Shown here: positions 6,259 to 53,714 of the stretch, piece by piece | Position numbering within the stretch: the stretch's first letter is position 1 | Layout: each line of letters starts with the position of its first letter | Origin: Nitratireductor pacificus pht-3B | Lineage (GTDB): Bacteria > Pseudomonadota > Alphaproteobacteria > Rhizobiales > Rhizobiaceae | NCBI RefSeq assembly: GCF_000300335.1 | Contig: NZ_AMRM01000008.1 | Coordinates: 1 to 64,000, forward strand | DNA length: 64,000 nucleotides | Direction: 5' to 3' | Program-made: the position numbers and the translations under genes | The notes under the pieces: model-generated | Told to the model about the DNA's origin: nothing | The model's input: only the letters and a program-made list of their open reading frames with translations | Databases searched by the model: none

Positions 6259-7089
6259 TCAGGCTCCGCAGACCGCCGGATCGGCCCTCGTCGAGATGTC
6301 GAAGCCGAACCAGTGCTCTGAGATGCGGCGGATCTCGCCTTCCTTCTTCAGCGCGCACAGGGCCACGTCCCATGCCTTGCGCAGCTCGTCGGAATCCTTG
6401 CGCATCAGCCCGCCGACGCCGACGCCCAGATAGTTGAACGTCTCGAAGTTGAGGTCGGGCGAGAGGATCTCGATGCCCTCGCCCTGCGTGGTGCCCGTCA
6501 ACGCGATCCAGGGCGAGCGCCCGGCGAGCGCGGCGTCGAGGCGGCCGGCCAGCAGGTCGAGATTGAGGCTGTCCTGGTTGTCGTAGAGCCGGATGGTGAC
6601 GTCGCCCTTCAGCTCGTTGTCCATGAAGCGCTGGCTCTGCGTGCCGGACTGGACGCCGATCGTCTTGCCGACCAGGGCCTCGCGCAGCTCGGGCCAGGCG
6701 CTCTTGCCGTTCAGGCCGGCGCTCTTGGCGGCGGCGAAGTTGATCGGGAGGTTGGCGTAGCTCTGCGTGAAGGCAAGGCGCTTCTGCCGTTCGGCCGTGA
6801 TCGAGATTCCGCCGACGAGGATATCGTACTTGCCCTGCTCCAGCGCCGGGATCTGCCCTTCCCAGGGCTGCGCGGTGAAGCGGCACTTGCGCTCCATCCG
6901 CTCGCACACCAGTTTCGCCAGCTCGATGTCGAAGCCGGTCAGTTCGCCCGCCGGCGTCATCGAGCTCCAGGGCAGGTAGCCGCCATCGGTGCCGATGCGC
7001 ACCTCGGGCTTCTCCTCCGCCGCGGCCGGTCCCGCCAGTGACGCCCCGAGCGCCAGCGCCGTCAACAGTCCCACCAGTTTTCGATACAT
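6259..7089 (-). CDS. Periplasmic amino-acid binding protein (SBP family 3)
   Basis: 276 aa from ATG 7089 (GGAGGGG about 10 nt upstream; a GTG three codons earlier sits too close to that site). Signal peptide with core LLTALALGASLAG, cleaved near AAA-EE. The mature protein begins 'PEVRIGTDGGYLPWSSM...GELTGFDIELAKLVCERM', the classic HisJ/ArgT fold opening, then 'CRFTAQPWEGQIPALEQGKYDILVGGISITAERQK' with the ligand-binding Ser/Thr/Arg region. Two Cys (in 'VCERMERKC') could form the disulfide seen in ArgT/HisJ. It is encoded between an M20 peptidase and the two permeases. The ligand is likely a polar amino acid or opine. Confidence 0.88.
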   Translation of the reverse strand: MYRKLVGLLTALALGASLAGPAAAEEKPEVRIGTDGGYLPWSSMTPAGELTGFDIELAKLVCERMERKCRFTAQPWEGQIPALEQGKYDILVGGISITAERQKRLAFTQSYANLPINFAAAKSAGLNGKSAWPELREALVGKTIGVQSGTQSQRFMDNELKGDVTIRLYDNQDSLNLDLLAGRLDAALAGRSPWIALTGTTQGEGIEILSPDLNFETFNYLGVGVGGLMRKDSDELRKAWDVALCALKKEGEIRRISEHWFGFDISTRADPAVCGA

Positions 7090-46281: not shown

Positions 46282-47814
46282 ATGGCGCAAACGGCAATCG
46301 AGCTCAAAGGCATCAGCAAGAGCTTTGGCGCGGTTCACGCAAACCGCAACATCGACCTCAGGATCGAGGCCGGAACGATCCACGGCATCATCGGCGAGAA
46401 CGGCGCCGGCAAGTCGACGCTGATGTCGATCCTCTACGGTTTCTACCAGGCCGACCGGGGCCGCATCCAGGTGGGCGGCAAGCCCGTCACCATCAACACG
46501 CCGAGCGCTGCGATCGCGCTGGGCATCGGCATGGTCCATCAGCATTTCATGCTGGTCGAGAATTTCACCGTCCTGGAGAACGTCATCCTCGGCGCCGAGG
46601 GCGAGGCGCTGCTCAACACCTCGATCGCCAAGGCCCGCGCCGAGCTGGAACGGCTTGAGCGCGACTACGGGCTGGAGGTGGATCCCGACGCGGTGATCGA
46701 GGACCTGTCCGTCGGCCTGCAGCAGCGCGTCGAGATCCTCAAGGCGCTCTATCGGGGCGCCGAGATCCTCATCCTCGACGAACCGACCGGCGTGCTTACC
46801 CCGGCGGAGGCCGACCACCTGTTCCGCATCCTCAGGCAGCTGAAGGACGAGGGGAAGACCATCATCCTCATCACGCACAAGCTGCGCGAGATCATGGCCG
46901 TGACGGACAGCGTCTCGGTGATGCGCCAGGGGGCGATGGTGGCCACCCGCGCGACCGCCGGGACGACGGTGGAGGAACTGGCCGAGCTGATGGTCGGCCG
47001 CCGTGTCCTGCTGCATGTCGAGAAGGGCGAGGCCAGCCCCGGCGACGTGATCCTGTCCGTGAAGAACCTCACCGTGCGGGATTCGCGCGGTGTGGTCATG
47101 GTCGACGATGTCTCGCTCGACGTGCGGGCGGGCGAGATCGTCGGCATTGCCGGCGTGGCGGGCAACGGCCAGTCGCAGCTGCTCGACGCCATCACCGGCG
47201 TGCAGAAGGCCGTTTCCGGGACGGTGACGCTGGATGGCGCCCCCGTGGCGCTGACGGGCGAGGCGGACCCCGCCGACCTGCGCGAGCGGGGCATGGCGCA
47301 TGTGCCCGAGGACCGGCACCATGTGGGCCTCGTGCTGCCCTTCGAGGAGAACGAGAACGCCATGCTGGGCTATCACCGGCAGGCGAAATATCTGAAGGGC
47401 CCGTTCCTCGACATCGAGGCGATCCGCAACGACGCGCGCGAGAAGATCGAGAAATACGACATCCGCCCCGCCGACTGCCGGCTGAAGACGGCGAATTTCT
47501 CCGGCGGCAACCAGCAGAAGATCGTGCTCGCCCGCGAGATGGAGCAGGACCCGAAGGTGCTGATCGTCGGCCAGCCGACGCGTGGCGTCGATGTCGGCGC
47601 CATCGAGTTCATCCACAAACGGCTCATCGACATGCGCGACCAGGGCAAGGCGGTTCTGCTGGTCTCGGTCGAGCTGGACGAGATCCGCTCCCTGTCCGAC
47701 CGCATCCTCGTCATGTTCGCCGGGCGGATCGTCGGCGAGCGGGGGCCGGACGCGAGCGAGGGCGAGCTTGGCCTGCTGATGGCCGGCGTCGAGGAGAAGG
47801 AGGCCGCGGAATGA
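46282..47814 (+). CDS. nupA: Nucleoside ABC transporter, double ATPase subunit
   Basis: 510 aa with two fused nucleotide-binding domains (about 5-240 and 255-500), the RbsA/YufO-like layout of BMP-family nucleoside importers. First domain: Walker A 'GENGAGKSTLMSILYG', signature 'LSVGLQQRVEIL', Walker B 'ILILDEPTGVLTP'. The second has a degenerate P-loop 'GVAGNGQSQLLDAI', signature 'FSGGNQQKIVLAR' and 'LIVGQPTRGVDVG'. It works with NupB and NupC. No BMP-type binding protein is encoded in the window. The last codons (KEAAE stop) are duplicated at the far side of the restriction-modification insertion. Confidence 0.92.
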   Translation: MAQTAIELKGISKSFGAVHANRNIDLRIEAGTIHGIIGENGAGKSTLMSILYGFYQADRGRIQVGGKPVTINTPSAAIALGIGMVHQHFMLVENFTVLENVILGAEGEALLNTSIAKARAELERLERDYGLEVDPDAVIEDLSVGLQQRVEILKALYRGAEILILDEPTGVLTPAEADHLFRILRQLKDEGKTIILITHKLREIMAVTDSVSVMRQGAMVATRATAGTTVEELAELMVGRRVLLHVEKGEASPGDVILSVKNLTVRDSRGVVMVDDVSLDVRAGEIVGIAGVAGNGQSQLLDAITGVQKAVSGTVTLDGAPVALTGEADPADLRERGMAHVPEDRHHVGLVLPFEENENAMLGYHRQAKYLKGPFLDIEAIRNDAREKIEKYDIRPADCRLKTANFSGGNQQKIVLAREMEQDPKVLIVGQPTRGVDVGAIEFIHKRLIDMRDQGKAVLLVSVELDEIRSLSDRILVMFAGRIVGERGPDASEGELGLLMAGVEEKEAAE

Positions 47815-47815
47815 G
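47797..47815 (+). repeat. Direct repeat, left end of the restriction-modification insertion
   Basis: AAGGAGGCCGCGGAATGAG at the nupA stop. It recurs at 49060-49078 with two A/G differences; the last 13 bp are identical. It contains an AGGAGG ribosome site and the ATGA overlap. Confidence 0.85.
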
Positions 47816-49065
47816 ATCGGCGGACGATCTGCCCGTGGAAATTCAACAGTTGTACCAGGTATTCGACTGGCGAAACGCTGTTGCGATTCTATCGACGGTT
47901 CATTCGTCGGACTTCTCCGAGATACTTGATGTTCTTTCCAGGTTCCGCCTTCGCTATTCGGATGTTTCTCAAGGTGGAGGAAACAAGTCGCAGATCTCGA
48001 AGTTTATCGATTCCAACCTTTATGCGTCCGGTTGGAAGGAGGTGTCCTTTGATACAAAGTTCGTTGTCGACGGCACGGAGTATCCCTCACCGACGCACAG
48101 CGTCGACTGCTTCAAGGGAAAGATCGCGCTTGAAGTGGAATGGAACAACAAGGATCCGTTCTTCGACAGGGACCTCAACAATTTTCGCTTGCTTTATGAT
48201 CTCCGCATCGTTGATGTCGGCGTCATCGTAACACGAGCGACGTCGCTTCAAACGACGCTCACTGGGGTTGGCCGAGCCGCGACGACATTCGGCAAGGCTA
48301 CGACTCACACTGAAAAGCTCTATCCGAAGATAAGAGGTGGAGGCGCCGGTGGGTGCCCTGTGCTAGTCTTTGGAATCAAACCGGAGGCCTATGTCGATGA
48401 CCGATGACGTTCTTGATACCATCATCGACTTTTCGCAGCATCTACGCGGACGCAAGGTGAAAACCGTGCTGGCCGATCCTCCGTGGCGTTTTACGAATCG
48501 AACCGGAAAAGTGGCTCCCGAGCACAAGCGCCTCAGCCGCTACGGGACCATGACCACGGATGAGATTTGCCAACTCCCGGTCGTGGAGGCGCTCGCGCCG
48601 ACGGCGCATCTCTATCTATGGACGCCCAATGCCCTGTTGCCCGATGCGCTGAAGGTTATGGAAGCGTGGGGTTTCACCTACAAGACGAACATCATCTGGC
48701 ACAAGATCAGGAAGGATGGCGGCTCGGACGGTCGGGGGGTAGGGTTCTATTTTCGCAACGTTTCGGAATTGATTCTCTTCGGTGTAAGAGGCCCAAACGC
48801 GCGCACCTTGGCCGCCGGGCGCAGCCAGGTTAATTACATCGCTTCCAGAAAACGAGAACATTCCCGGAAGCCTGATGAACAGTATGACCTGATCGAGGCA
48901 TGTTCACCGGGTCCATACCTCGAAATGTTTGCGCGCGGCACGAGGCCCGGCTGGATATACTGGGGAAATCAGGCCAACGACGAATACGCTCCAACCTGGG
49001 ACACCTATTCATACAACTCTCGGAGTGACCCGGCTCCCGACAGGAAGGAGTCCTCCGTCAAAGAA
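47803..49065 (+). mobile_element. 1,263-bp restriction-modification cassette inserted in the nup operon
   Basis: The segment between the two direct repeats (counting one repeat copy) holds only the BglII-like endonuclease and MT-A70 methylase genes, has visibly lower GC than the flanks (many 60-base lines near 45-50%), and separates nupA from nupB, which are normally adjacent. No transposase, integrase or inverted terminal repeats are present. Removing exactly 1,263 bp rebuilds a nupA-nupB ATGA junction. Confidence 0.8.
47811..48407 (+). CDS. Type II restriction endonuclease, BglII/BstYI-like
   Basis: 198 aa; ATG 47811 overlaps the nupA stop and uses the AGGAGG in the nupA 3' end. Length is close to BglII (223) and BstYI (203). 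The active-site pattern Asp99-(8)-Glu108-Val-Glu110 in 'SVDCFKGKIALEVEWNNKD' matches the D-x8-E-x-Q arrangement of BglII, with Glu in place of Gln, and is followed by the family-like 'WNNKDPFFDRDLNNFRLLYDLRIVDVGVIVTR'. It should cut a GATC-containing site (RGATCY or a subset), inferred from the family. The overlap with the methylase by 11 bp supports a matched pair. GC is low compared with the flanks, indicating transfer. Confidence 0.8.
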   Translation: MRSADDLPVEIQQLYQVFDWRNAVAILSTVHSSDFSEILDVLSRFRLRYSDVSQGGGNKSQISKFIDSNLYASGWKEVSFDTKFVVDGTEYPSPTHSVDCFKGKIALEVEWNNKDPFFDRDLNNFRLLYDLRIVDVGVIVTRATSLQTTLTGVGRAATTFGKATTHTEKLYPKIRGGGAGGCPVLVFGIKPEAYVDDR

Positions 49066-49077
49066 GCCGCGGAATGA
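48397..49077 (+). CDS. MT-A70 family adenine-N6 DNA methyltransferase
   Basis: 226 aa from ATG 48397 (GGAGG 9 nt upstream; ATG 48391 is too close). Catalytic motif DPPW at residues 27-30 in 'KTVLADPPWRF', then 'HLYLWTPNALLPDALKVMEAWGF', 'NIIWHKIRKDGG', and 'SRKREHSRKPDEQYDLIEACSPGPYLEMFARGTRPGWIYWGNQ', the SAM-binding and target parts of the MT-A70 (IME4/M.MunI) group. It should protect host DNA from the upstream endonuclease by m6A. The C-terminal KEAAE is the same as the NupA C-terminus because both come from the flanking repeat. The stop overlaps nupB (ATGA). Confidence 0.85.
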   Translation: MTDDVLDTIIDFSQHLRGRKVKTVLADPPWRFTNRTGKVAPEHKRLSRYGTMTTDEICQLPVVEALAPTAHLYLWTPNALLPDALKVMEAWGFTYKTNIIWHKIRKDGGSDGRGVGFYFRNVSELILFGVRGPNARTLAAGRSQVNYIASRKREHSRKPDEQYDLIEACSPGPYLEMFARGTRPGWIYWGNQANDEYAPTWDTYSYNSRSDPAPDRKESSVKEAAE

Positions 49078-49078
49078 G
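49060..49078 (+). repeat. Direct repeat, right end of the restriction-modification insertion
   Basis: AAAGAAGCCGCGGAATGAG, matching 47797-47815 at 17 of 19 positions. The two changes convert AAGGAGG to AAAGAAG, which weakens the ribosome-binding site in front of nupB. Confidence 0.85.
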
Positions 49079-50213
49079 CGCGCCATACGCCAAGCTGCCG
49101 GCCTGGGCCGATTATGGGCTGATCCCGCTGATCAATCTCTGCGTCGCCTTCCTGGTCGCCGGGCTGGTGGTGATGCTGGTCGGCGAGAATCCGTTCCGCG
49201 CCGCCGCGATCCTGGTCGAGGGCGCGCTCGGGCGCGGCCAGAACATCGCCTACACGCTCTATTACGCGACCAGCTTCATCTTCACCGGCCTTGCGGTCGC
49301 CGTCGCCTTCCATTGCAGCCTGTTCAACATCGGCGGCGAGGGACAGGCCTATGTCGGCGGGCTGGGCGTCGCCGTGGTGTGCCTCGCCTTCGACAGCATC
49401 CTGCCCTGGTGGGTGGTGTTCCCGCTCGCCGTGGCGGGCGCGGCGCTGTTCGGTGCCGCCTGGGCGTTCATTCCCGCCTATTTCCAGGCGCGGCGCGGCT
49501 CGCACATCGTCATCACGACGATCATGTTCAACTTCATCGCCGCGAGCCTGATGGTCTACCTCTTGGTCAACGTGCTGAAGCCGGCCACCAGCCAGGCCCC
49601 TCAGACGCGCACCTTCCTCGAGGGCGGGCAACTGCCGAAGCTGAACTTCGTCCTCGAGGCGCTCGGCTTCTCCGTGCGCTCGGCGCCGTTCAACCTGTCG
49701 TTCCTGCTGGCGCTGCTCGCCGCTTTCCTGGTCTGGGTGCTGATCTGGCGGACGCGGCTCGGCTACGAGATCCGCATGCGCGGGTTCAGCCCGAAGGCGG
49801 CGCGCTATGCCGGTGTCAGCGACACGAAGATCGTCATCGTCGCCATGCTGATCTCCGGCGCGCTGGCCGGCATGATGGCGCTCAACCCGGTGATGGGAGA
49901 CCAGAACCGGCTGCAGATCGACTTCGTCACCGGCGCCGGCTTCGTCGGCATCGCCGTGGCGCTGATGGGCCGGTCGCACCCTGCCGGCATCGTGCCGGCG
50001 GCGATCCTGTTCGGCATGCTTTACCAGGGCGGCGCGGAACTCGCCTTCGAAATGCCCAACATCTCGCGCGACATGATCGTCATCATCCAGGGGCTGGTCA
50101 TCCTTTTCGCCGGCGCGCTGGAGCACATGTTCCGGCCGTCGGTGCAGGCGGCCATCGCCACCCTCAGCCCGCGCGCCGTCGGCGCCGAGGCGCGCCAGGG
50201 GGAGGGTGGCTGA
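49074..50213 (+). CDS. nupB: Nucleoside ABC transporter permease
   Basis: 379 aa, about 9-10 membrane helices of the BPD_transp_2 family (AI-2/ribose/nucleoside type). Landmarks: 'ALGRGQNIAYTLYYATSFIFTGLAVAVAFHCSLFNIGGEGQAYVGG' region, 'RRGSHIVITTIMFNFIAASLMVYLL', 'RMRGFSPKAARYAGVSDTKIVIVAMLISGALAGM'. It forms the channel together with NupC. ATG 49074 overlaps the methylase stop; ancestrally it must have overlapped nupA in the same way. With the ribosome site weakened, its translation probably depends on coupling to the methylase. Confidence 0.92.
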   Translation: MSAPYAKLPAWADYGLIPLINLCVAFLVAGLVVMLVGENPFRAAAILVEGALGRGQNIAYTLYYATSFIFTGLAVAVAFHCSLFNIGGEGQAYVGGLGVAVVCLAFDSILPWWVVFPLAVAGAALFGAAWAFIPAYFQARRGSHIVITTIMFNFIAASLMVYLLVNVLKPATSQAPQTRTFLEGGQLPKLNFVLEALGFSVRSAPFNLSFLLALLAAFLVWVLIWRTRLGYEIRMRGFSPKAARYAGVSDTKIVIVAMLISGALAGMMALNPVMGDQNRLQIDFVTGAGFVGIAVALMGRSHPAGIVPAAILFGMLYQGGAELAFEMPNISRDMIVIIQGLVILFAGALEHMFRPSVQAAIATLSPRAVGAEARQGEGG

Positions 50214-50214
50214 G

Positions 50215-51186
50215 ATGGATTTCTTCAACACACTGATCCTCCTGCTCGATTCCACCGTGCGGCTTTCCGTGCCGTTGCTGCTGGCGGCGCTGGCGGGCCT
50301 CTACTCGGAACGCTCCGGCGTGTTCGACATCGGCCTCGAGGGCAAGATGCTGGCCGGCGCCTTTGCCGCCGGCGCGGCCGCCGCCGTGACCGCCTCGGCC
50401 TGGGCCGGACTGGGGGCAGCCATCATGGTCTCCGTCTTCCTGGCGCTGGTGCACGGCTTCGCCTCGATCACCCATCGCGGCAACCAGATCGTCTCCGGCG
50501 TCGCCATCAACTTCATCGCCGCCGGCTCGACCATCATCCTCGGCCAGGCCTGGTTCCGGCAGGGCGGCCGCACACCGTCGCTCCCGGCGGACGGCCGTTT
50601 CGGCGCCATCGAGCTGCCCTTCGCCGACGCCGTGCGCGATGTGCCGATCCTCGGCCCGATCTATGCGGAGCTCCTGTCCGGCCACTCGCTGCTGGTCTAC
50701 GCGGCGTTCCTGTTGGTGCCCTTCACCTGGTGGGTGCTGTTCCGCACGCGCTTCGGCCTGCGCCTGCGCGCCGTCGGCGAAAACCCGGCGGCAGTGGACA
50801 CGGCGGGCATCTCCGTTTCCTGGCTGCGCTACCGCGCGGTGATCTGCACGGGGATCCTGACCGGCATGGCCGGCAGCTATCTGGCGCTGGCGCAGAATGC
50901 CGGCTTCGTGAAGGACATGACGGCGGGCCGCGGCTTCATCGCGCTGGCGGCGCTCATCTTCGCCAAGTGGAAGCCGGTGCCGGTGATGTTCGCCTGCCTC
51001 CTGTTCGGCTTCCTCGATGCTTTCGCGATCCGCATCCAGGGAACGCCGCTGCCGCTGATCGGCCAGGTGCCGGTGCAGTTCATGCAGGCGCTGCCCTATA
51101 TCCTGACCGTGGTGCTGCTCGCCGGCTTCATCGGCAAGGCCATTCCCCCGCGCGCCGGCGGCGTGCCCTATGTGAAGGAGCGCTGA
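50215..51186 (+). CDS. nupC: Nucleoside ABC transporter permease, second subunit
   Basis: 323 aa from ATG 50215 (GGAGG 9 nt upstream), one base after the nupB stop. Eight to nine membrane helices. Conserved parts: 'LLLAALAGLYSERSGVFDIGLEGKMLAGAFAAGAAA', 'GFASITHRGNQIVSGVAINFIAAG', 'RTRFGLRLRAVGENPAAVDTAGISVSWLRYRAVICTGIL', 'FIALAALIFAKWKP'. It is the partner of NupB. The stop overlaps the cdd start by one base, linking uptake to salvage. Confidence 0.92.
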   Translation: MDFFNTLILLLDSTVRLSVPLLLAALAGLYSERSGVFDIGLEGKMLAGAFAAGAAAAVTASAWAGLGAAIMVSVFLALVHGFASITHRGNQIVSGVAINFIAAGSTIILGQAWFRQGGRTPSLPADGRFGAIELPFADAVRDVPILGPIYAELLSGHSLLVYAAFLLVPFTWWVLFRTRFGLRLRAVGENPAAVDTAGISVSWLRYRAVICTGILTGMAGSYLALAQNAGFVKDMTAGRGFIALAALIFAKWKPVPVMFACLLFGFLDAFAIRIQGTPLPLIGQVPVQFMQALPYILTVVLLAGFIGKAIPPRAGGVPYVKER

Positions 51187-51581
51187 TGAGCGCCGACCAG
51201 CTTTTCGCGGCGGCCAGGGCCGCCATGGCCAGGGCCCATGCCCCCTATTCGCGCTTCCCCGTCGGCGCGGCGGTGAAGACCGAGGCCGGCGCGATCCATG
51301 CGGGCTGCAACATCGAGAACGCGTCCTATCCCGAAGGCTGGTGCGCCGAGACGACGGCGCTCGGGCACATGGTCATGGCGGGTGGCGGCCGGGTGACCGA
51401 GATCGCCGTCGTGGCGGAGAAGATGGCGAAGATCATGCCCTGCGGCGGCTGCCGTCAGCGCCTCGCGGAATTCGCCGCCGACGATGCGGTGCTGCATCTG
51501 TGCGACACGGAGGGCGTGCGGGAAACGATCCCCTTCTCGGCGGTTTTCCCGCGCGGCTTCTCGTTCGAGGATGGCAAATGA
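51186..51581 (+). CDS. cdd: Cytidine deaminase
   Basis: 131 aa, the small homotetrameric type. It deaminates cytidine and deoxycytidine to uridine forms. Zinc and catalytic motifs: 'HAGCNIENASYPEGWCAETTAL' (Cys ligand then Ala-Glu with catalytic Glu) and 'MPCGGCRQRLAEF' (two Cys ligands), with 'APYSRFPVGAAV' at the N-terminus. It overlaps nupC by one base and the phosphorylase by four. It channels imported pyrimidine nucleosides towards uridine for DeoA and Upp. Confidence 0.95.
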   Translation: MSADQLFAAARAAMARAHAPYSRFPVGAAVKTEAGAIHAGCNIENASYPEGWCAETTALGHMVMAGGGRVTEIAVVAEKMAKIMPCGGCRQRLAEFAADDAVLHLCDTEGVRETIPFSAVFPRGFSFEDGK

Positions 51582-52384
51582 GGGAAGCGATCGACCTCCT
51601 GACGGAGCGGCTCGAGGGGCTTGCCCCGCGCCTCGGCCTGGTACTCGGCTCCGGCCTCGGCGGGCTGGTGGACGAGGTCGAGGACCCGGTGCGCGTCCCC
51701 TACGCGAACTTACCGGGATTCCCCCGGAGCGGCGTCACCGGCCATGCGGGCGAGATCGTTGCCGGAACGCTGGCCGGCACGCCAGTCGTGATGCTGGCGG
51801 GGCGCGCGCATTACTACGAGCACGGCGACCCGGCGGCGATGCGCCCTGCGCTCGAAACCTTATGGGGCATCGGCGTGACGACCCTGATCCTGACCAATGC
51901 GGCGGGATCGCTGAGAGAGGACATGCCCCCCGGCTCCGTGATGATGCTCGACGACCACATCAATTTTTCGGGCGCCAACCCGCTGATCGGCGAGGCGAGC
52001 GACCGCCGCTTCGTCGGCATGAGCGAGGCCTACGACCCGCACCTGCGCGCCGCACTTGCCGCGGCCGCCGGCGAAGCCGGGGTCGAGCTGCACCGGGGCG
52101 TCTACATGTGGTTCTCCGGACCGAATTTCGAGACGCCTGCCGAGATCCGCATGGCGCGGGTGCTGGGCGCGGACGCGGTCGGCATGTCGACCGTTCCCGA
52201 AGTGATCCTGGCGCGCTATTTCGGCCTCAGGGTCGCCGCCTGCTCGGTCATCACCAATCTCGGCGCCGGCATGAGCGCCGGCGAGCTGTCGCATCAGGAG
52301 ACCAAGGACATGGCGCCCATCGGCGGCCAGCGCCTCGCCAGGATCCTCCGGCAACTCCTTGCCGGCGGCCTGCCGGAAGGTTGA
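51578..52384 (+). CDS. punA: Purine nucleoside phosphorylase (PNP type)
   Basis: 268 aa from ATG 51578. Trimeric PNP/MTAP motifs: phosphate loop 'LGLVLGSGLGGLVDEV', 'VMLAGRAHYYEHGDP', 'LILTNAAGSLRE', 'YMWFSGPNFETPAEIRMAR', Met/Ser of 'AVGMSTVPEVILARYFG', 'VITNLGAGM'. It splits inosine and guanosine with phosphate to base plus ribose 1-phosphate. It is encoded in the nup-cdd-deoA operon with ATGA coupling to cdd, and works in purine salvage along with Add (55180-56166). Confidence 0.93.
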   Translation: MREAIDLLTERLEGLAPRLGLVLGSGLGGLVDEVEDPVRVPYANLPGFPRSGVTGHAGEIVAGTLAGTPVVMLAGRAHYYEHGDPAAMRPALETLWGIGVTTLILTNAAGSLREDMPPGSVMMLDDHINFSGANPLIGEASDRRFVGMSEAYDPHLRAALAAAAGEAGVELHRGVYMWFSGPNFETPAEIRMARVLGADAVGMSTVPEVILARYFGLRVAACSVITNLGAGMSAGELSHQETKDMAPIGGQRLARILRQLLAGGLPEG

Positions 52385-52394
52385 GGCGCGGGCG

Positions 52395-53714
52395 ATGCTG
52401 CCGCAGGAGATCATCCGCAGCAAGCGCGATGGCGGTGTCCTGTCGAAGGCCGACATCGCCGATTTCGCGGCCGGCCTGACCCATGGCACGTGGAGCGAAG
52501 GCCAGGTGGCCGCGCTCGCCATGGCGATCTTCCTCAACGGGATGAATGCGGAGGAAGGCGCCGCGCTGACCTTGGCCATGCGCGATTCTGGCAAGGTGCT
52601 GGACTGGTCCGGCCTGCCCGGCCCGGTGACCGACAAGCATTCGACGGGCGGGGTGGGCGACAATGTCTCGCTGATGCTGGCGCCCATCGTCGCCGCCTGC
52701 GGCGCCTTCGTGCCGATGATTTCCGGACGCGGCCTCGGCCATACGGGCGGGACGCTCGACAAGATGGATTCCATCCCCGGCTACACGAGCCAGCCGGACG
52801 ACCGGCTGTTCGCGAGAACCGTTCGCGACGTGGGATGCGCCATCATCGGCCAGACCGCGGACCTCGCGCCCGCGGACAAGCGCTTCTATGCGGTGCGCGA
52901 CGTGACGGGCACCGTCGAATCGATCCCGCTCATCACCGCGTCGATCCTCTCGAAGAAACTCGCCGCTGGCCTCTCCTCGCTGGTGCTCGACGTGAAGTCA
53001 GGCAACGGCTCCTTCATGGCCGAGGCGCGCGACGCGCGAAGGCTGGCGGAGAACCTGGTGACGGTGGCCGGCGCCGCCAGCCTGCCGGCGACGGCGCTGC
53101 TGACGGGCATGAACGAGCCGCTGGCCTCCGCCGCCGGCAACGCCGTCGAGGTGCGCAACGCGGTCGACTTCCTCACCGGGGCCGGACGCGACAGGCGTCT
53201 GGAGGACGTGACGCTGGCGCTGGCGGCGGAGATGCTCGTGGCCGCACGCATCGCCGCGACGGCCAAGGAGGGACTGGCGCGCGCGCGGGAAGCGCTTTCC
53301 GGCGGCGCTGCCGCGGAGCGTTTCGGAAAGATGGTGCGGGCGCTCGGCGGTCCCGCCGATTTCGTCGAGAACCCGGAGCGATACCTGCCAGCGGCGGCCA
53401 TCGTCGTGCCGGCGACTGCGGGGCGCGACGGCTTCGTCGGCCGCATCGAGACGCGGGCGCTCGGCGTGGGGGTGATCGAGCTGGGCGGCGGCCGGTCGAA
53501 GCCCGAGGATGCGATCGACCATTCGGTCGGCCTGACCGGATGCCTGCCCGTCGGCGCGGAAGTCCGGCGCGGCGAACCGCTGGCCATGGTGCATGCCCGG
53601 ACCACGGACGACGCGGAGCGGGCGGTGGCGGCGGTGCGCGCCGCCTACCGGATGACGGACGAGAAGCCGCGCGCGGGAAAGGCGATACTGCGGCGGATCG
53701 CCGGGGCCGCGTAA
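52395..53714 (+). CDS. deoA: Thymidine phosphorylase
   Basis: 439 aa from ATG 52395, 10 bp after the PNP stop. Motifs: 'LPQEIIRSKRDGGVLS', 'DKHSTGGVGDNVSLMLAPIVAACGAFVPMISGRGLGHTGGTLDKMDSIPG' region, phosphate/base site Lys-Ser in 'LVLDVKSGNGSFM', and a C-terminal pyrimidine phosphorylase lyase-like domain ('GGGRSKPEDAIDHSVGL'). It cleaves thymidine and deoxyuridine to base and deoxyribose 1-phosphate. It is the last gene of the nucleoside operon. Confidence 0.95.
   Translation: MLPQEIIRSKRDGGVLSKADIADFAAGLTHGTWSEGQVAALAMAIFLNGMNAEEGAALTLAMRDSGKVLDWSGLPGPVTDKHSTGGVGDNVSLMLAPIVAACGAFVPMISGRGLGHTGGTLDKMDSIPGYTSQPDDRLFARTVRDVGCAIIGQTADLAPADKRFYAVRDVTGTVESIPLITASILSKKLAAGLSSLVLDVKSGNGSFMAEARDARRLAENLVTVAGAASLPATALLTGMNEPLASAAGNAVEVRNAVDFLTGAGRDRRLEDVTLALAAEMLVAARIAATAKEGLARAREALSGGAAAERFGKMVRALGGPADFVENPERYLPAAAIVVPATAGRDGFVGRIETRALGVGVIELGGGRSKPEDAIDHSVGLTGCLPVGAEVRRGEPLAMVHARTTDDAERAVAAVRAAYRMTDEKPRAGKAILRRIAGAA

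Follow-up and report, generated by a model that had tools for sequence, protein, structure and literature searches.

It has long been asked how restriction-modification (R-M) pairs and single nuclease genes spread when no transposase is involved. One class of such movers is known as minimal mobile elements, a term that reportedly goes back to Saunders and Snyder in 2002. Excerpts of two papers define these as differing whole-gene cassettes, R-M genes included, between the same two conserved genes, with a type II R-M case between pheS and pheT of Neisseria (PMC3898611, PMC3082526). R-M genes have also been described as inserting with long, variable target duplications (Nobusato et al. 2000, as cited in an excerpt of PMC3031569), small integration hotspots for R-M genes have been suggested (excerpt of PMC4176335), and among the free-standing GIY-YIG endonucleases of T-even phages such as T4, the seg genes, several overlap their upstream genes (excerpt of PMC2988022). 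Here we describe an R-M pair lying between nupA and nupB of a nucleoside operon in Nitratireductor pacificus pht-3B (contig NZ_AMRM01000008.1, positions 1 to 64,000; this 64,000-nucleotide stretch is called the window). R-M cassettes between conserved genes and R-M target duplications are known already; the present locus is a variant at a stop/start overlap that resembles minimal mobile elements. Our favoured reading, to which we give a probability of about 55%, is that small nuclease cassettes have docked repeatedly at the nupA-nupB overlap in this bacterial family and that the R-M pair entered it by short-homology insertion at matching gene tails. This reading is supported by empty sites in sibling species, recurrent unrelated nucleases at the same joint, a widespread methylase tail and a motif that is rare in the genome.

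The gene order is nupA, endonuclease, methylase, nupB, all on the forward strand and overlapping at each joint. The nupA-like open reading frame (ORF; 46282..47814) encodes an ABC transporter ATP-binding protein with two ABC_tran stretches (Pfam E 3.9e-51) and a C terminus reading ...EEKEAAE, and its stop overlaps by 4 bases (ATGA) the start of a 198-amino-acid BglII/BstYI-family type II restriction endonuclease (47811..48407; PF09195). The endonuclease gene overlaps by 11 bases that of a 226-amino-acid MT-A70 type II adenine methyltransferase (48397..49077; PF05063), which ends in ...SSVKEAAE, thus sharing KEAAE with NupA, and whose stop overlaps by 4 bases (ATGA) the start of the nupB-like permease (49074..50213; BPD_transp_2, E 4.7e-34). 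A left 19-bp repeat at the nupA 3' end (47797..47815, forward strand, AAGGAGGCCGCGGAATGAG) comprises a Shine-Dalgarno-like AAGGAGG and the ATGA overlap, and the right repeat (49060..49078, forward strand, AAAGAAGCCGCGGAATGAG) spans the methylase 3' end and the nupB start; 17 of the 19 positions are identical, the final 13 without a change, at a spacing of 1,263 bp. G+C content is 0.49-0.59 within the R-M block vs about 0.66 outside. The initial annotation, made from the letters alone, had reported a lower-GC 1,263-bp block with both genes, a 19-bp end repeat with two changes, the shared KEAAE ends and the ATGA overlaps at the endonuclease and nupB starts; Pfam, G+C content and the sequence itself bear out each of these. 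It had also reported no transposase. In 47815-49073, shadow frames of at most 116 amino acids are indeed all that is open besides the R-M genes, and no transposase or integrase gene was seen, the frames not having been searched as transposase. The likeness of the two ends goes beyond chance, because their longest shared word is 13 bases vs 8 at the 95% point of 60 shuffles of one flank, and because the shared 16-bp motif GARGCSGCSGAATGAG has three copies in the 4.47-Mb genome, of which the cassette ends account for two.

Sibling species show the site before insertion. nupB was found in all nine other genomes of the genus (G001-G009; 91-95% identity, in two pieces in G005), and none of the nine has an endonuclease match at E 0.001. 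Seven (G001, G003, G004, G005, G006, G008 and G009) have an empty site, where NupA ends in ...EKEAAE or ...KKEAAE and its stop directly overlaps the nupB start; the left repeat of the window is close to this native junction. The other two (G002 and G007) carry an unrelated GIY-YIG/DUF4357 gene at the same overlap. The siblings confirm the claim of the initial annotation that the R-M pair is an insertion spliced into an operon junction, with coupling, as judged from the stop/start overlaps, kept on both sides. Taken together, nupA and nupB of the window are nearest to those of the empty G003 (91.2%); the last short nupA block is 94% identical to G003 and 97% to G006, and the first nupB block is 89% identical to G003 and 84-87% to the others. 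The flanks of the window resemble the empty siblings up to the joint, which speaks against imported flanks, and block-wise comparison with these siblings revealed no foreign tract near it.

The GIY-YIG inserts show that unrelated nucleases reach this joint repeatedly. Relatives occur in 39 of 394 family genomes searched, and among the 30 loci listed, eight lie between nupA and nupB (L098, L106, L111, L115, L116, L117, L118 and L119; in L116 a VOC gene follows). All eight members match DUF4357, six match PF01541 weakly (best E 0.0025), and plasmid relatives are named 'GIY-YIG nuclease family protein' in RefSeq; a PDB sequence search with the GIY-YIG profile returned nothing useful. A tree of 48 full-length proteins, built with the last 14 residues removed and with G007 as a long branch, has well-supported branches that can be reconciled only with three independent arrivals at nup, one for a clade of six members, one for G002 and one for G007. 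One joint of about 20 bp in one bacterial family has received at least three separate GIY-YIG genes plus an unrelated R-M lineage. Exact direct repeats flank the copies in G002 (21 bp), G007 (24 bp), G068 (18 bp), G265 (14 bp) and G160 (8 bp), with shuffle maxima of 8, 8, 8, 9 and 7, respectively; those in G333, G248 and G196 are no longer than in shuffles. The repeats reach into codon 3 of nupB in G002 and codon 4 in G007 and carry lineage-specific bases, as do both copies of the 18-bp repeat in G068. Over nupA plus nupB, G002 shares 96.3% identity with G001, an empty sister, and 99-100% beside the insert; the sisters G008 and G004 are also empty. Tails ending in AAE or AAQ occur in 6/8 nup copies vs 1/40 others (Fisher p 1.5e-5, related rows not being independent). 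For these GIY-YIG inserts, target duplication of about 20 bases (21 bp in G002, 24 bp in G007) is well supported.

The same repeats bear on whether the ends could be alike by convergence, with selection for a Shine-Dalgarno sequence and a stop/start overlap shaping both ends of cassettes that arrived by random illegitimate recombination. AAGGAGG does lie in the left repeat, seven bases before the start, and stop/start coupling of this sort is frequent in operons; however, the 21- and 24-bp repeats extend exactly into codons 3 and 4 of the next gene, and the inserts in G068, G160 and G265 retain AAE or AAQ codons without, by eye, a good Shine-Dalgarno sequence. Convergence is therefore very improbable. 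A diverged donor, acting by homing or flank exchange, was rejected because no foreign tract was seen beside the inserts of the window, G002 and G007, although a near-identical donor would not have left one. Like the seg genes as excerpted, the nup GIY-YIG genes stand singly between conserved genes, for the most part share their orientation and in several cases overlap the gene upstream. Unlike seg genes, they encode bacterial DUF4357 proteins of about 300 amino acids with relatives also beside type I R-M-like genes, and no co-conversion tract was seen at the nup inserts. GIY-YIG relatives turned up on plasmids (52 records) and phages (2 records), in every case below 60% identity, and no vehicle of these inserts is among them.

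A wider survey gives the background occupancy of the junction. It comprised 161 nupA-nupB junctions, one per genome (60 from a first search, 4 of them of other families, 20 and 80 from a family search, and the window), fetched mainly from genomes with the nearest NupB and so a non-random sample; a junction was called empty if the gap was at most 19 bases. Of these, 117 were empty, 37 held metabolic or secreted-protein genes, 4 GIY-YIG genes, 2 the R-M pair and 1 a possible short remnant. Empty junctions in related genomes, which the initial annotation had proposed looking for, are thus the rule both here and among the siblings. The 37 divide into an isochorismatase-family gene (16), a VOC/glyoxalase gene (12), both (4) and a secreted-looking protein of unknown function (5). 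NupA ends in AAE in 129/161 junction genomes. The nupB-nupC junction, taken as a control, yielded no insert across 61 loci: of two gaps that seemed to exceed 60 bases, one is due to a break in nupB (L046) and the other to a nupC start that had been missed (L056). As with minimal mobile elements in the excerpted definition, differing whole-gene cassettes, an R-M pair among them, lie between the same two conserved genes across the 161 junctions, here in different species rather than strains. Unlike those elements, the nup cassettes are joined by 4-base overlaps without spacer, and some cassette ends repeat 13-24 bp of the joint, with no imported flank tract. A literature search, which did not target the nup operon by name, did not find this insertion site. 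The most economical view is that the docking site is defined by the conserved nupA 3' end, with its ribosome-binding-like sequence and ATGA overlap.

How the R-M pair entered turns on whether its right-hand end was copied from nupA. Under short-homology insertion, the ...AAE-stop tail of the methylase would have matched the ...EAAE-stop of nupA, and recombination would have occurred at this short stretch. The nupA end would be kept and the endonuclease would begin at the nupA stop, while the methylase stop would replace that of nupA and the nupB start would be kept; nupA end and nupB start would both be preserved because the crossover lies within the matching tails, the shared tail being the crossover site that we infer. 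The R-M pair would then be translated from the nucleoside-operon message, and use of nup transcription by the R-M genes is plausible and fits the absence of intergenic space. AAE-stop tails occur in 54/97 distinct methylases outside nup, so there is no need to derive the right-hand 'copy' from nupA, and it is probably the methylase's own end. The same tail is found in 2 of about 813 other long ORFs (unannotated, at least 250 amino acids, from L038-L097, with NupA removed by motif and three GIY-YIG genes left out). A parallel case outside nup is Rubrimonas L256, where the upstream gene (aminotransferase-like by eye) ends in QKAAE and the methylase in LKAAE, and where the gene after the methylase, by eye homoserine-dehydrogenase-like, has its start in the overlap.

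Under target duplication, some process would instead have opened the junction with ends offset by about 20 bases, leaving the cassette between two copies of the nupA tail and nupB start. The GIY-YIG inserts speak for it, through the exact repeats with lineage-specific bases in both copies in G002, G007 and G068, the near-identity of G002 and G001 beside the insert and the excess of AAE/AAQ tails in nup. So does the first alanine codon, which is GCC in both window copies and GCG in the nine siblings. Against it for the R-M pair stand sister nup cassettes without exact repeats and the methylase tail widespread outside nup. Moreover, the left end of the window is as close to the right ends of some other genomes as to its own right end (19, 19 and 18 of 22 positions). 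Over 10 inserts, left and right ends are alike at a mean of 14.4 of 22 positions within genomes vs 12.3 between genomes, a weak excess in a comparison that includes L111 and L116 with misplaced nupB starts, and single cases were relied on instead. The initial annotation had offered short homology or target duplication for the R-M pair; the first fits the pair better, and the second finds its support at the GIY-YIG inserts instead. It had also named relatives with the same genes and no terminal repeat as evidence against its reading, and such relatives exist: the nup R-M pairs of L253, L254 and L255 lack an exact repeat, the longest exact words shared by their cassette ends being 8, 5 and 6 bases. 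Target duplication was dropped as favourite for the R-M pair on these sister cassettes and on the AAE methylase tails at unrelated loci; it stays alive through the imperfect repeat of L255 (13/18), as an unlikely origin. Like the R-M insertions with long target duplications, as the excerpt describes them, the window has R-M genes inserted between direct repeats that may stem from the target; unlike them, its repeat is short, the right copy is probably native to the methylase, and the clean duplications at nup belong to lone GIY-YIG genes. Either route, short homology or duplication, would leave the operon readable.

The closest relatives of the endonuclease raise a further alternative, that the pair has long resided at this operon in several genera, is swapped through recombination in nupA and nupB as a minimal mobile element would be, and is often lost. 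Among the best 80 of 125 matches from a pattern-based scan of species genomes, the closest endonucleases are L253 (76%; same contig as L200 of G143), Ahrensia L254 (69%), Rubrimonas L256 (69%) and Aurantimonas marina L255 (68%), followed by sequences at 60% or below. Of these four, three are located in the nup operon: the L253 cassette between nupA and nupB, that of L254 between an isochorismatase-type gene (by eye) and nupB, with nupA outside the stretch examined, and that of L255 between nupA and a VOC gene (by eye). No nup genes were present within the stretches examined of loci L236-L252. The window and L253-L256 group together in both trees (87 and 94% in the Shimodaira-Hasegawa-like approximate likelihood-ratio test, SH-aLRT), and the window and G143 have diverged similarly in endonuclease (75.8%), methylase (77.0%) and NupA (78.6%). 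Both the grouping and the similar divergence favour long residence. The flanks without a foreign tract and the lower G+C content of the R-M block argue against it, however, and the clean empty sites in seven siblings would demand repeated precise loss; we consider it improbable. Plasmids (13 records) and phages (5 records) also carry BglII-type relatives, all below 60% identical, and no vehicle of this cassette is among them; one is a BglII-type endonuclease of Mesorhizobium phage KM199771.1 (7251-7826), 54% identical to that of the window.

Several observations weigh against short-homology insertion at a docking site. In L255 the nupA and methylase tails both read EAAE and are alike at 13/18 bases with an overlapping start, and an old duplication would give the same. 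The right end of the window matches the best non-nup methylase tail (L232) at 16/20 and the window nupA at 17/20, which does not separate a native from a copied end. In Ahrensia L254 the gene upstream of the pair ends in VIH and the methylase in TAS; neither is AAE, and these tails therefore count against a general AAE rule. As a check on whether the upstream AAE of Rubrimonas L256 predates the insertion, relatives of the gene downstream of the pair were compared; one of 25 readable upstream tails is AAE at these distant hom junctions (best identity 60%; 5/30 loci without a readable upstream ORF). The control junction is not immune either, as L254, outside the 61 control loci, has a 114-amino-acid ORF at 6387-6731 between nupB and nupC. 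One junction was surveyed, because it was the one given, rather than all junctions. Finally, the left crossover finds an explanation only if the donor was circular or tandem or had a similar upstream tail.

In L262, a free-standing locus in methylase-endonuclease (M-R) order, the methylase/endonuclease joint is GAAGCTGCGGAATGAGC, the same layout as nupA/nupB, and a circular or tandem cassette crossing over at such a joint would give nupA-R-M-nupB exactly, an attractive but unproven route. Such permutation is not required, because endonuclease-first (R-M) order is widespread outside nup: 51 loci have R-M order, 20 M-R order and 33 are divergent, and 6 of the 51 are the window and nup copies, two of the 6 being repeats. 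A broader scheme, which we regard as doubtful, would make GIY-YIG/DUF4357 genes and AAE-tailed R-M pairs alike promoterless single-cassette mobile elements that insert at (E/K)AAE-TGA/ATGA overlaps with about 20 bases duplicated or matched, take start, stop and ribosome-binding sequence from the target, and convert M-R into R-M order at the same overlap. The cassettes may be mobile, and defence-type genes can come under a host operon without breaking it. The nup junction is a natural test bed for transposase-free movement of nuclease genes, and the near-identical empty sister of G002, G001, supplies exact before and after sequences and a testable target site.

The window cassette is apparently an intact BglII-family type II R-M pair. 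The endonuclease matches the full PF09195 profile (1-163/163, E 5.1e-41), and 15 aligned sequences show no variation at D99, E108, E110 and their neighbours, an acidic block that may correspond to the BglII active site D-x8/9-E-x-E/Q. No PDB chain was matched by sequence at E 0.01; RefSeq labels plasmid relatives 'BglII/BstYI family type II restriction endonuclease'. The methylase matches PF05063 at profile positions 3-172 of 172 (E 3.1e-28) and PADLOC MTase_II (E 4e-93), and its DPPW motif is invariant in 4 aligned sequences. The pair is predicted to be active in restriction; enzymes of the BglII/BstYI type cut AGATCT or RGATCY unless the site is methylated. As in other BglII/BstYI systems, a full-length PF09195 endonuclease adjoins an MT-A70 methylase; unlike them, the window pair is embedded in a metabolic operon with the endonuclease first.

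The genes around the cassette encode a sugar/nucleoside-type ABC transporter and, further on, nucleoside salvage families, as judged by Pfam, and the nup names were assigned from the families of these flanking and downstream genes. On the forward strand, nupB is followed by the nupC-like permease (50206..51186; BPD_transp_2, E 4.2e-35) and by genes for cytidine deaminase, nucleoside phosphorylase and pyrimidine nucleoside phosphorylase (51186..53714; Pfam); 'nucleoside operon' is a fair name because of the deaminase and phosphorylase families downstream. Among the occupied junctions, the secreted-looking protein between nupA and nupB (L065, L205, L216, L217 and L219) has 285-289 amino acids, and that of L065, the sole one scanned, had no Pfam match. 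The candidate remnant, in L207 (G179), is an 89-base gene-free gap, possibly left by a lost insert.

Away from nup, L099 (G314) has a GIY-YIG gene at 1483-2439 that is 67-68% identical to that of G002; its start lies in the overlap with a short frame just before it that ends in REAAE, while the gene itself ends in PEAAE and adjoins a resolvase-like gene (by eye). In L102, L109, L112, L114, L120, L121 and L125, GIY-YIG/DUF4357 genes stand beside type I R-M subunit-like genes, several overlapping them (by eye), which suggests a role alongside type I systems.

About half of the M-R-order BglII/BstYI relatives carry an upstream regulatory-type sequence instead of an operon setting. GTTC-N7-GTTC, which we take to be the alphaproteobacterial LexA box, lies 33-48 bases before the methylase start in 10/20 M-R loci (9/19 without the repeat pair L232/L262), namely L032, L033, L036, L232-L235, L261, L262 and L283. 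It is found within 120 bases in 4/51 R-M and 1/33 divergent loci, with 30 boxes in 708 kb overall, a distribution that suggests SOS control of the M-R-order BglII/MT-A70 pair.

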